DNA from: Gloeomargaritales cyanobacterium VI4D9 | GTDB taxonomy: Bacteria > Cyanobacteriota > Cyanobacteriia > Gloeomargaritales > Gloeomargaritaceae | NCBI GenBank assembly: GCA_927797885.1 | Contig: OV696605.1 | Span: forward strand, 1,711,157-1,775,156 | Reading direction: 5' to 3' | DNA length: 64,000 nt | Shown here: in pieces, positions 30,717 to 35,727 of the stretch | How positions within the stretch are numbered: position 1 is the first letter of the stretch | Layout of the letters: the number at the start of each line of letters is the position of its first letter | The notes under the pieces: generated by a model | Database searches by the model: none | Seen by the model: the letters and a program-made list of their open reading frames with translations, nothing else | Told to the model about the DNA's origin: nothing | Position numbers and translations under genes: made by a program

Positions 30717-31139
30717 TGCCGCCAGGGGTTGCCCTTGGTGGAAAATCACATCGGCTTGGGCGGTCTGTTCAATTTGGTCCACCACCTCAGGGGGCAGGTT
30801 TAACCATTCTACCAGGCGGCGGTAGGCTTGTTGCTCGGCGGGGACGATAGCGGTTTCCCCTGGGCTGGCACCGGCTTGGATGAGTAAATAGCTCAGCCGC
30901 AACAGCCACTCCCGGTGATGGTCGGGGGGGGATTTTTGGAGCAATTCCTCCAGGTCGTAGTCGGCAAACAGGCGGTCGTAGAGTTCGCTCCACAGGTGAT
31001 CCTGGCTCACCACATCTTGACCGGCAAATTCCGGCACCAGCTGATCCAACAGCAGGCGAATTTCCTGGCGGGTCAGGCGGCCATCACTCCAGGCGACAGC
31101 AGCTAAGATTTGTAATAACAATTCCTGTTCAGGAGTCAT
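30678..31139 (-). CDS. TerB-like helical protein
   Basis: 153 residues. The helix bundle start ELLLQILAAVAWSDGRLTRQEIRLLL matches the TerB/DUF533 pattern, where the acidic residue in SDG binds metal. Function unknown in cyanobacteria. The ATG overlaps the TGA of the upstream fusion gene (TGATG), so translation is coupled with that cell-wall enzyme. Confidence 0.6.
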   Translation of the reverse strand: MTPEQELLLQILAAVAWSDGRLTRQEIRLLLDQLVPEFAGQDVVSQDHLWSELYDRLFADYDLEELLQKSPPDHHREWLLRLSYLLIQAGASPGETAIVPAEQQAYRRLVEWLNLPPEVVDQIEQTAQADVIFHQGQPLAALRAQIQQFFGGA

Positions 31140-33448
31140 CAGGATTTTGGGGGTTTGGGTGGGGGTTCCGGGGTGGCCAGCAGTTGGGCGACGGTCACCA
31201 ATTCTAAGCCCTTGGCGCGCAGGGTACCAATTACCCCCGGCAGGGCATCGGCAGTACTGCCGTAAATGTCGTGCATCAGGATAATCGAGCCAGCCCGGGC
31301 CTGATCCTGTACCGTCTGGATAATCCGTTGGGGGTTGCGGTGTTGCCAATCCCGGGTATCCACATCCCAGATGACCAACGATAGCCCCAATTCGGCGGCC
31401 AAACGGATGGTGGTGCGGTCAAAACTGCCGTAGGGCGGTCGAAAATACTGGGGACGTAGCCCCGCCGTTTCGCAGACCAAAGCCTGGGTGGTGTGAATTT
31501 CCTGGTACACCCTGGCATCGTTCAGGGCGGTCAGGGTCGGGTGGTTGGTGGTGTGGTTGGCGACCTCATGCCCCTCGGCACGCATCCGCCAGAGCAATTG
31601 AGGGGATCGGCGAACCATCCGTCCCTGGACGAAAAAGGTGGCTGGTACCCCCTCCTGGTGGAGAATATCCAGAATCCGCCGGGTCTGTTTGGCATCCGGG
31701 CCATCGTCAAAGGAGAGGGCGACCCGGGGGGTATGGGTGGGGCCCCGGTAGATCACCCGGTTATGGACTGGGGTCGGGGGAGTGGTGCAAGCGGTGGTGG
31801 GTTCTGTAAGCGTCACTTTTTGGCTTTGGTAAGCCACCACCTGATCGCCCTGCCACACCTGTACCCGCAGGAGTCGTTCCCCGCCCTTGGTGATCCGGGT
31901 CAGCCAGCGGTATTCCGGTCCAACACCGGTTTGCTCCCCCAAGGACTCCTGATCCAGCCAGACCACCACCCGATCCGCCCCCGTCACCCGCACGACTACC
32001 TCGTACACCCCATTGCGGGACAGCAGTTGCGCCTGCAGTGGCAGACCCCGATTCGGTTGGTGGGTCATCCCGCCCAGGGGAGCCGTCCGCAAGGCGGTCA
32101 AGACCTGCTGTGCCACCTGGGACAACCCCTGGCAATTGTCCCCGGCTCGGTAAGCAGGCATCGCCACCGCCAATAGATACCGTTCCGTCCCCGCCAGCAC
32201 CACCCCACTGTCCACGCAATCCCGGCTGAGTACCCACCCCGGTTTGTGGCAAATGCGGGGGGTACGCCCCAACGCCGCCCTCGCCCCCGGCGCAAAAAAC
32301 GACGGCTCCGCCCGACACAGGGACTCGGTTAAACGCACCGCATCCTCCGGGGAAATGCGAAATTGCTCCTGCGGCTCCAACTCCCCATGCAAGACCACCC
32401 GCCGCACCGCCTCCGTCATTTCAAACAAATTGGCGCAATTTCCCTGGGCTGGACATTTCTCACCCCCCTGGGAACTTCGGGGTGGAATGTACTTCTGCCG
32501 ATTCCCCTCCCGCAGGATCAGCCCCGGACTGGCATAGATGTTCACCGCCCCACTGTACCCCCGTTGCAACTGAGTAGTGGGAAAGCCCCGCTCCGGAGTG
32601 AGAAATTTTTGGTTCAGCCAATCCAGCCCCACCAACTGCACCGTCAGGTCATAGTCCAAATTGGAACTTTCCCGAATCGAACGGTCAACGATCCGCTCCA
32701 GCCGGTCCCGCATCCGGGGCAATTCCACCGTCGCTTGGCCGGTAAATCCTTGGGTATGCACCCATTCCAACGCCGCCACCGCTGGCAAAACTTTCACCGT
32801 CGAAGCGGGCCAAAACCCCTGACTAAACGCCCCCAACCCCGCCTCGTAAAACCGATAGGCTGGCCGCCCACCCACCCCCGGTTCAATCTGCACCGCATAC
32901 ACCGCTGTCCCCGCTGGTAGCCGCACCCCCTTGCGCCCCAGGGTTTGGGGGAGAAACTGCCGATCCATCACCCGTCGCACCCCCCATTCCCAGGGCACCG
33001 GCGGCACAACCGGCTGTGGCTCCACCGGGGCAAGGGATTCCGACTCCGGGGGTTCCTGAGCGTGGGAATCATGGAAACGGTGCCACCCCCACCCCAACCC
33101 GCTGACCGCCAACAGAAGTCCCAGGGGTAACGCCCAGGCAAATCGCCGCTGGGGGGCAATAATTTCCGTCTGCCAAAGCACCTGCGCCGTCTCCTGCGCC
33201 ACCCGTAGATGGATTCGGGCAAACCCAAAGGAACCCCCACCCACCAGCCGCCCCAGCCGACGCTTCAACCGCCGCTGTTGTTGGGGTGGGAATGCCTGTC
33301 CCGCCCAGGTCAGTGCTACCTGCAAAACCGGCGGATGTTGGGCATAGACCGCCCGCACCAAATCTTTACCCAGCACCGAATGCACCACCCGTTGCACCCG
33401 ATGAATATCCCCCTGGCCAGCTGACTCAGGCCACCGTTGAGCCACCAT
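31139..33448 (-). CDS. Serine hydrolase (class A beta-lactamase/PBP-like) fused to polysaccharide deacetylase
   Basis: 769 residues. A cytoplasmic N-terminus (1-100), a membrane helix at about 103-120, then a serine-hydrolase domain with SxxK in WPASTVKVLPA (S216, K219), SxN in ESSNLDYD (S261, N263) and a KTG-like HKPGW (K402). After a beta-rich linker (about 465-555), a NodB deacetylase domain follows: SFDDGPD (D581, D582), H632 and H636 in NHTTNHPTL, RPPYGS (670-675) and LMHDIYG (H726). The protein could trim peptides and deacetylate glycan of peptidoglycan in the periplasm. The open frame reaches 33478; ATG 33448 is preferred. Each half is well supported, but the fusion's substrate is inferred. 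Confidence 0.8.
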   Translation of the reverse strand: MVAQRWPESAGQGDIHRVQRVVHSVLGKDLVRAVYAQHPPVLQVALTWAGQAFPPQQQRRLKRRLGRLVGGGSFGFARIHLRVAQETAQVLWQTEIIAPQRRFAWALPLGLLLAVSGLGWGWHRFHDSHAQEPPESESLAPVEPQPVVPPVPWEWGVRRVMDRQFLPQTLGRKGVRLPAGTAVYAVQIEPGVGGRPAYRFYEAGLGAFSQGFWPASTVKVLPAVAALEWVHTQGFTGQATVELPRMRDRLERIVDRSIRESSNLDYDLTVQLVGLDWLNQKFLTPERGFPTTQLQRGYSGAVNIYASPGLILREGNRQKYIPPRSSQGGEKCPAQGNCANLFEMTEAVRRVVLHGELEPQEQFRISPEDAVRLTESLCRAEPSFFAPGARAALGRTPRICHKPGWVLSRDCVDSGVVLAGTERYLLAVAMPAYRAGDNCQGLSQVAQQVLTALRTAPLGGMTHQPNRGLPLQAQLLSRNGVYEVVVRVTGADRVVVWLDQESLGEQTGVGPEYRWLTRITKGGERLLRVQVWQGDQVVAYQSQKVTLTEPTTACTTPPTPVHNRVIYRGPTHTPRVALSFDDGPDAKQTRRILDILHQEGVPATFFVQGRMVRRSPQLLWRMRAEGHEVANHTTNHPTLTALNDARVYQEIHTTQALVCETAGLRPQYFRPPYGSFDRTTIRLAAELGLSLVIWDVDTRDWQHRNPQRIIQTVQDQARAGSIILMHDIYGSTADALPGVIGTLRAKGLELVTVAQLLATPEPPPKPPKS

Positions 33449-34644: not shown

Positions 34645-35727
34645 ATGCCTACACATTCCTTAGATTTACGGCAAAGAATCGTAGTTGCATACCAAGCGGG
34701 AGAACAATCCGGGAAGTAGCTAAGCGGTTTATAGCGAAGCGTGGCGAAGCCATTGGTAACTAAAAGGACAGTACATCGCCTGGTACAACAGTATAAACAG
34801 ACTCAAGACTTAACACCTAAAAAAGTAGGGACAAAACGAGTTGGAATTTTAGAACAAAATAAAGTTGCGATTTTAGCCATTGTTGAAGAGTATCCAGATA
34901 AGTGTTTGTGGCAATATGTTGAGATAATCGGAGAAAGGCTAGGAAGTGAGTATTAGCACATTGCATTCTTTCTTGAAAAAGCATAAAATCACTCTAAAAA
35001 AAAAGACATTCCGCAGTGAAAAAGTCAAGAGTGAAGTTGTGCAGAACGCTTAGGATACTGGCATAAGATTGGAAGCGTTCCAGCCAAAGATATAGTTGCT
35101 GTAGATGAAACAGAAGGGAGGGGATGGAGAGGAAAGTTGCACGGAGTTTACAAGGGAAAAAAGTTTATAGTTATCGCCAGAAAAACAAGGGTCAGAAATA
35201 CACGTTAATTGGTGCTATATCTGTGGATGGTATTGTTTGTCATAAAATCATTAAAGGCTCAATGAAGAAACAGGATTTTTTAGAATTTGTGAGGTTCTCC
35301 TGAGTATTTGGTGATAAGCAGAGTTTATACTTAAGCCTGACAGGGGTTTCAGCCCCCCTAGCGACAGAAAAGCGTATCGTCCTATACAATTCCCACCACA
35401 AATCTAGGAGAGCCATTTGTGAAAACAGAATTATGCCCAAAATCAAATGAAAAGAAGGTGGTAATTATGGACAACTTGAATAGTCATAAAGCCATAGAAG
35501 TACAACAGATGATTAGCCAGACCGGTGCTCGTTTCTTGGTTCTCCCTGTGTATTCACCAGAATTTAATCCAATGGAAATGATGTGGTCAGTCCTAAAGAA
35601 TTTTATTCGACAGTTTCATGATTCACCAGTAAAAAATATACAGTCAATTATCCAAGCATCTTTGTTATTGATTAATCCTTCTTCTTTTGCAAATTGGTTT
35701 GCCAAATGTTGCTACTGTACCCCATAA
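34645..35727 (+). pseudogene. IS630-family transposase, decayed
   Basis: Starts MPTHSLDLRQRIVVAYQAGE, then a one-base loss leads to a stop (tag at 34717). A 22-base insertion with a GGCGAAGCC core restores the frame, giving VTKRTVHRLVQQYKQTQDL. More stops follow; later pieces show VAVDETEGRG (first Asp region), and after the R2 element VVIMDNLNSHKA (second Asp) and YSPEFNPMEMMWSVLK (DDE catalytic Glu region). Inactive. Confidence 0.75.
35293..35415 (+). repeat. R2 MITE-like element with perfect 8-base target duplication
   Basis: Starts GGTTCTCCTGAGTATTTG and ends CAAATCTAGGAGAGCC. It is flanked on both sides by ATTTGTGA (35285-35292 and 35416-35423). GG-TCTCC tips and 8-base duplications resemble ISL3-family elements, which is an inference. 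Centre has gacaggggtttcagccccc, a strong hairpin. Confidence 0.85.

Follow-up and report, generated by a model that had tools for sequence, protein, structure and literature searches.

Gene organization at the locus

We found a single open reading frame of 769 codons on the minus strand of the window (the whole 64,000-nucleotide stretch of DNA analysed here, from the 3.16-Mb, single-contig genome of a Gloeomargarita cyanobacterium), which runs open from an ATG at 33448 to a stop at 31139. An alternative GTG start 30 bases upstream of this ATG would give a protein of 779 amino acids. The encoded protein carries a serine hydrolase domain with a predicted class A fold and a CE4/NodB deacetylase domain in one chain with a predicted membrane anchor, and this fusion architecture is confirmed. 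The features of the gene and of the gene behind it are listed in Table 1.

Table 1. Positions, in the window, of the fusion gene, its domains and motifs, and the downstream gene
Feature	Residues	Position	Strand	Basis or remark
Whole fusion gene, 769 aa: N-domain, membrane segment, serine hydrolase, beta domain, NodB deacetylase		31139..33448	(-)	
N-terminal domain, predicted cytoplasmic	1-102	33143..33448	(-)	no Pfam match
Membrane segment	about 103-121	33086..33142	(-)	hydropathy peak
Serine hydrolase domain, class A beta-lactamase/PBP-A fold	151-457	32078..32998	(-)	alignments, model
STVK (SxxK box): nucleophile serine, general-base lysine	216-219	32792..32803	(-)	
SSN (SxN box)	261-263	32660..32668	(-)	
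HKPG (KPG 402-404), KPG variant of the KTG box	401-404	32237..32248	(-)	
Beta-strand domain, common to close Myxococcota relatives	471-547	31808..32038	(-)	alignment, model
NodB/CE4 deacetylase	566-757	31178..31753	(-)	Pfam, sequence matches, model
Motif 1, FDDGPD	from 580	31694..31711	(-)	
Motif 2, HTTNH	from 632	31541..31555	(-)	
Motif 3, RPPYG	from 670	31427..31441	(-)	
Motif 4, DVDTRDW	from 695	31346..31366	(-)	
Motif 5, ILMHD	from 723	31268..31282	(-)	
TerB-like protein, 153 aa		30678..31139	(-)	start overlaps fusion stop by one base (TGATG)

For the entire chain, AlphaFold gave a model with a mean pLDDT of 86.1 and a pTM of 0.67; the serine and beta domains modelled alone reach 89.9 and 0.90. 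The N-domain, for which no family was found in Pfam, is modelled as alpha-beta-beta-alpha-beta-beta with a pLDDT of about 90. The single hydrophobic segment that follows has a modest mean hydropathy (1.55 over 19 residues) and lies in the low-confidence part of the model (pLDDT below 50 at residues 102-146). Two arginines precede this segment, and the N-terminus is therefore predicted to be inside.

The TerB-like protein scores below the Pfam cut-offs for both TerB (PF05099; 18.9 bits of 24.4) and DUF533 (18.6 of 29.6). Its gene lies directly behind the fusion gene in all seven Gloeomargarita genomes, and the TGATG stop/start overlap recurs in G003 and G004. In G007, of the sister genus, the region behind NodB showed no TerB-like gene.

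The C-terminal NodB domain

The NodB identity of the C-terminal domain is certain. Residues 569-691 match Polysacc_deac_1 (PF01522) with an E-value of 7.5e-37 (126.5 bits, cut-off 23.1), and all five CE4 motifs are present in the alignment to ArCE4A. We take FDDGPD to hold the catalytic base and metal-binding aspartates, and HTTNH the metal-binding histidines. The best sequence match overall is ArCE4A (E 8.8e-45), which is not labelled as a peptidoglycan enzyme, and CE4 enzymes on chitin and xylan are also among the sequence matches; the best NCBIfam match, below threshold, is streptococcal PgdA. Peptidoglycan deacetylases and an acetylxylan esterase head the structural matches of the NodB model, with Z-scores of 30.9 over 199 residues for Bc1960, 30.2 for 7FBW, and 28.4 over 186 residues (39% identity) for SpPgdA. 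A viral fold search returned weak matches only, some of them to phage NodB-like proteins.

Streptococcus PgdA (2C1G), Bacillus Bc1960 (4L1G) and PdaC (6H8L) thus share the NodB fold and the five motifs with the fusion protein at 35-39% identity over 186-199 residues, but in the fusion a serine hydrolase precedes NodB, and to our knowledge none of these three deacetylases has such a domain. NodB also occurs inside multi-domain cyanobacterial proteins of the GH18-NodB-GT2 type (L169 and L171), but its partners there, presumably of glycosidase and glycosyltransferase types, are not a serine hydrolase. Each of the eight Gloeomargaritaceae genomes has a second PF01522 match. In the window's genome this second NodB protein has 610 amino acids, is of the FDDGY type and has a different C-terminal half. 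Some NodB proteins are inactive, as described for BA0330 and BA0331 (PMC4505593).

The serine hydrolase domain

In the serine half, the SxxK and SxN boxes are present in all 29 aligned rows, and a KxG box in 28 of them, the remaining row being without the lysine. The third box is KPG in 20 rows, KGG in five, KTG in two (the near rows L121 and L122) and KAG in one; K[T/S]G is absent from the seven Gloeomargaritaceae rows of this alignment, which all have KPG. The stretches WPASTVK, SSNxDYD and ICHKPGWV are unchanged across nine aligned sequences. The initial annotation had regarded the active-site motifs of both halves as intact in the 769-residue chain; this holds for the five NodB motifs and for SxxK and SxN, but not for the third box, which is KPG and not KTG. 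In class A enzymes, the threonine of KTG binds the substrate carboxylate. The proline in its place points to beta-lactams being weakly bound and possibly to a substrate that lacks a free carboxylate, and strong penicillin binding is doubtful with a KPG box.

Against Beta-lactamase2 (PF13354; cut-off 22 bits), the window's domain reaches 16.4 bits (E 0.006), or 18.4 bits when the serine part is scanned alone. The cut-off is passed by two of the eight orthologous Gloeomargaritaceae domains, G007 (L033; 29.1-30.4 bits) and G002 (24.4 bits, with neighbouring pieces), and by the Myxococcota relative L036 (23.7 bits), while L035 (21.9), L006 (21.6) and L005 (16.0) fall below it and the Myxococcota protein L034 has no PF13354 match. 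When the serine part was compared with solved structures by sequence alone, nothing convincing emerged (best E 0.1, in an alignment search).

The initial annotation had named the lack of a catalytic fold in models as evidence that would count against it, and a class A beta-lactamase/PBP-A fold was found. In VIA-align, PBP-A comes first, tied with class A beta-lactamases: the serine part of the full model superposes on PBP-A with Z 22.6 (3.0 Å over 239 residues), and the part modelled without NodB with Z 23.1 (2.8 Å over 237 residues, 18% identity). Foldseek's top match is the class A beta-lactamase LRA-5, with PBP-A in tenth place. Because of this tie and this order, the fold alone does not indicate a peptidase. 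An hhalign comparison of the 29 serine-domain rows with five PBP-A-like proteins of Gloeomargaritaceae gave a probability of 97.2 (E 3.7e-11) and paired the boxes STVK with STIK, SSN with SDN, and KPG with KTG. Ahead of the third box lies an enlarged stretch that could not be aligned with PBP-A in hhalign, and no omega-loop glutamate (Glu166) was assignable in it.

The PBP-A of Thermosynechococcus elongatus (TLL2115; 2J7V and 2J8Y) resembles the fusion serine domain in its class A-type fold, its SxxK and SxN boxes and its occurrence in a cyanobacterium, but the two share only about 18% identity, and the PBP-A proteins of Gloeomargaritaceae have KTG where the fusion domain has KPG. PBP-A is reported to be a DD-carboxypeptidase and DD-endopeptidase without the omega-loop glutamate of beta-lactamases (PMC11189452). 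A separate gene in the window's genome matches 2J7V with an E-value of 5.4e-71 (next, LRA-5, 1.2e-17), so that, judged from sequence, the genome carries a true PBP-A besides the fusion protein. The presence of this separate gene and the grouping of the fusion domain with Myxococcota indicate that the fusion domain is not orthologous to the cyanobacterial PBP-A gene.

Conservation and selection in Gloeomargaritaceae

Orthologues of the fusion gene occur at 63 and 71% identity in Gloeomargarita sp. SKYG116 (L032) and an uncultured cyanobacterium (L031), and on two contigs (L033 and L049) in Gloeomargaritaceae C42_A2020_066. The gene is present in seven of seven genus genomes, one of them frame-broken (G004, by a frameshift at a ten-G run). 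G006 has a TGA within the first few codons, ahead of a downstream ATG that is the likely start. In G002 the match begins at residue 104, and this frame yielded no N-domain. In G007, of the sister genus, NodB is spread over two contigs: one breaks off shortly after the domain begins, and the other carries the remainder. Splitting of the gene in relatives had been put forward as a sign against the fusion; the gene is not split in most of them, and five of the seven genus genomes have no stop inside the matched part.

The whole fusion query (P0001) matches 89 of 116 relatives, and its serine part, among the matches listed, only the genus and the sister genus G007. In a search of 386 cyanobacterial genomes with the serine profile (at most four best candidates each; G001, G002, G005 and G006 were not among its rows), at least three match, all of them Gloeomargarita. 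Six pairwise comparisons among six genomes, with G002 and G007 left out, gave dN/dS ratios of 0.11-0.18 for the serine half and 0.12-0.16 for NodB; by this measure both catalytic halves are under purifying selection. The N-domain has higher values (0.35-0.54 in the five of six pairs that were computable), and the linker value of 2.4 in the pair G000/G003, on a dS of 0.03, reflects too few changes to read. The basic proposal of two catalytic-type domains in one membrane protein, with a coupled TerB-like gene, is thus backed by profiles, structure models, orthologues and selection.

Origin of the two halves

Outside the cyanobacteria, we found the serine domain in Myxococcota, where the profile matches 50 of 282 genomes (six candidates per genome scored). 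The depth search of this subfamily covered Cyanobacteria and Myxococcota, and the scan of all contigs reaches close relatives only. The Gloeomargaritaceae rows form a clade (support 100/99) nested in a 12-row clade (100/99) that they share with five Myxococcota rows; a topology uniting these five rows in a single clade is not rejected (p-AU 0.115, on 28 of the 29 rows, one long branch dropped). The stand-alone Myxococcota proteins L034, L035, L036 and L120 have the same serine and beta domains, with WPASTVK, SSN and HKPGWV (38-41% identity to the fusion for L034-L036), but unlike the fusion they have no NodB in frame or nearby; the starts of L034 and L120 look lipoprotein-like by eye. No NodB was found near the Myxococcota serine genes at 22 distinct places (25 loci, 3 repeats), mostly within about 1.5 kb of flank. 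That the nearest relatives are NodB-less Myxococcota proteins suggests horizontal transfer, and the simplest reading is that the serine domain was probably acquired from Myxococcota in this way.

In a quick NodB tree of 139 rows, the Gloeomargaritaceae fall outside the main cyanobacterial NodB group. Holding them with that group is not rejected (p-AU 0.48, on 84 of the 139 rows, with long branches, near-copies and most Clostridia rows dropped), and a foreign origin of NodB is thus unsupported. We also considered that the serine domain had been inserted into an older cyanobacterial protein consisting of an N-domain and NodB. Comparison of the fusion N-domain with the N-domains of other cyanobacterial NodB proteins gave hhalign probabilities of 0.2 and 0.6 in shallow alignments, which leaves homology unsupported. 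The insertion idea was rejected on this ground, and the quick NodB tree, too, places the Gloeomargaritaceae outside the main cyanobacterial group.

A reversed fusion in another cyanobacterial family

The initial annotation had suggested a search of other cyanobacteria for proteins with this order of domains. Among the matches listed, this order is confined to Gloeomargaritaceae, and the reversed order exists in two genomes of another family (f26). The protein of G072 (P0003, 823 amino acids) begins with an N-domain followed by NodB (PF01522, 4.1e-36); a coiled-coil-like region then leads to the serine domain at the C-terminus (PF13354, 1.3e-26), which has the boxes SLIK, SSN and KTG. A protein of 822 amino acids with the same architecture and 43% identity is found in G760. 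Among the matches listed, these two are the only ones in the 29 genomes of the family; G102, G762, G765, G111 and G062 match over the N-domain, NodB and coil but not over the serine domain. In 292 sampled cyanobacteria (three candidates per genome scored), the whole query is spanned only in G072, again among the matches listed.

Both kinds of fusion combine NodB with a class A-type serine domain in a single protein, and the two serine subfamilies share a fold family (hhalign 97.5). They differ in the order of the domains, the third box (KTG in f26), the serine subfamily and the N-domain, which is not detectably related. The serine domain of G072 resembles separate cyanobacterial proteins, the relatives of the f26-type subfamily being mostly stand-alone proteins of cyanobacteria. 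The NodB of G072 falls within the main cyanobacterial group. No NodB was found at 10 stand-alone loci of the f26-type subfamily (frames of at least 250 amino acids). The different order and the different nearest relatives argue for two separate fusions, and by these sequence comparisons the f26 fusion is apparently independent of that in Gloeomargarita. That G072 and G760 carry a reversed fusion supports the view that the two activities are functionally linked.

Possible functions of the fusion protein

The reading that we propose, and to which we give an even chance, is that the fusion protein is a bifunctional, inner-membrane-anchored periplasmic peptidoglycan editor with two predicted active sites. 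Both catalytic domains are predicted to face the periplasm. By analogy with PBP-A, S216, K219, S261, N263 and K402 would form an acyl-enzyme on the D-Ala end of a stem peptide or on a cross-link. With KPG as the third box, a free terminal carboxylate would probably be bound only weakly, which would make an endopeptidase-like activity or an unusual acyl substrate likelier than a classical carboxypeptidase. NodB, with its metal predicted to be held by an Asp-His-His triad, would strip N-acetyl groups from GlcNAc (or MurNAc). Joined in one chain, the two would modify the same patch of newly made or remodelled wall. The N-domain and the TerB-like protein translated along with it probably control or position the editor from the cytoplasmic side. 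Several observations weigh against this reading: the window's serine domain falls short of the Pfam cut-off and of any convincing sequence match among solved structures, its third box is KPG, its fold ties with beta-lactamases, CE4 domains also act on chitin or xylan, some NodB proteins are inactive, and the two domains did not turn up as neighbouring separate genes at the 10 f26-type loci and the 22 Myxococcota places covered. Peptide-bond attack and peptidoglycan deacetylation, both suggested in the initial annotation, are thus putative activities of this protein, and lysozyme resistance is a possible role.

Only NodB might be catalytic, with the serine domain a peptidoglycan- or peptide-binding module that retains its fold and binds through the KPG box. 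The prevalence of KPG over KTG (20 of 29 rows, including all seven of Gloeomargaritaceae) and the weak Pfam score of the window's serine sequence would fit this, but the serine, the lysine and SxN are kept in every one of the 29 rows, which is hard to explain without catalysis, the dN/dS of the serine half is as low as that of NodB, and the near rows L121 and L122 have KTG; we find this explanation unlikely. The target might instead be an exopolysaccharide or the sheath, NodB deacetylating the polymer and the serine domain acting as its esterase or amidase. The predicted inner-membrane anchor speaks against this, as do the top-ranked VIA-align structures (a peptidoglycan deacetylase for one half, PBP-A for the other), the best, sub-threshold NCBIfam match to streptococcal PgdA, and the presence of another NodB protein, of the FDDGY type, in the genome. 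The CE4 enzymes on chitin and xylan among the matches, and the best match ArCE4A with its lack of a peptidoglycan label, keep such a target conceivable, but we consider it improbable.

That the serine domain is a beta-lactamase or a beta-lactam sensor, its fusion to NodB being incidental, we regard as very improbable. The tie with class A beta-lactamases in the fold comparison and the first rows of the Foldseek search are what it would explain, but that fold is common to PBP-A, no omega-loop glutamate is assignable, KPG replaces KTG, and the fusion is kept across the genus; nor do we know of NodB as a resistance partner.

The peptidoglycan editor reading can be extended, more tentatively and to a point that we think rather doubtful, to cyanobacteria having built a single-chain wall editor from an acyl-serine peptidase and an N-deacetylase at least twice, once with a serine domain from Myxococcota, in which the two edits would be obligately coupled and controlled from the cytoplasm through the N-domain and the TerB-like partner. 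Both parts are of known kinds, and we found no description of a fusion of NodB with such a serine domain in the literature as far as it was accessible to our search, so that the combination appears to be undescribed within those sources. Both activities are known as separate proteins, and among known free-living organisms Gloeomargarita is the one most closely related to plastids. If the extended reading is true, coupled trimming and deacetylation would mark or protect a wall segment in a way that separate enzymes cannot. One chain with both activities, in two lineages and in opposite orders, would be strong evidence for joint peptide editing and glycan deacetylation in cyanobacterial walls.

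Paralogues of the two genes and a broken orthologue

A second match to PF01522, the NodB deacetylase profile, is present in all eight Gloeomargaritaceae searched. In the member encoded by the genome of the window, the one whose sequence was read, the NodB domain is followed by a distinct C-terminal part. The TerB-like gene likewise has a second paralogue (36–39% identity), found in each of the seven Gloeomargarita genomes.

Additional NodB and TerB-like genes in the genome of the window (G000)
Feature	Locus and positions	Genomic region	Type
Second NodB protein	L180 497-2329	G000:C1, 2628300-2631000	FDDGY-type
Second TerB-like paralogue	L181 1665-2171	G000:C1, 2012500-2016500	

The fusion-gene orthologue of one Gloeomargarita genome (G004; one contig of 3,049,282 bases) is broken at a run of ten G (locus L007, about position 1540). 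The break may come from an error in the sequencing, from a gene that has lately decayed or from phase variation, none of which we prefer. In the window itself, a short frame at 35419-35727 lies within a lower-GC stretch and resembles the end of an IS630-type transposase.

NodB domains in other cyanobacterial proteins

In two cyanobacterial frames of 881 and 1141 residues (L169 and L171, respectively), NodB is central and flanked by two other parts, which we take to be one glycosidase-like and the other glycosyltransferase-like. Upstream of the G072 gene for the reversed fusion, in which NodB precedes the serine domain, a TerB-like profile weakly matches L172 8622-9071 (E 0.0057). Proteins from genomes of genus g29 (L173, L174 and L175) keep the N-domain, NodB and the coil, and are without the serine domain of the reversed fusions in G072 and G760. 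Either the serine domain was lost from the g29 proteins, or the fusion is of later origin.
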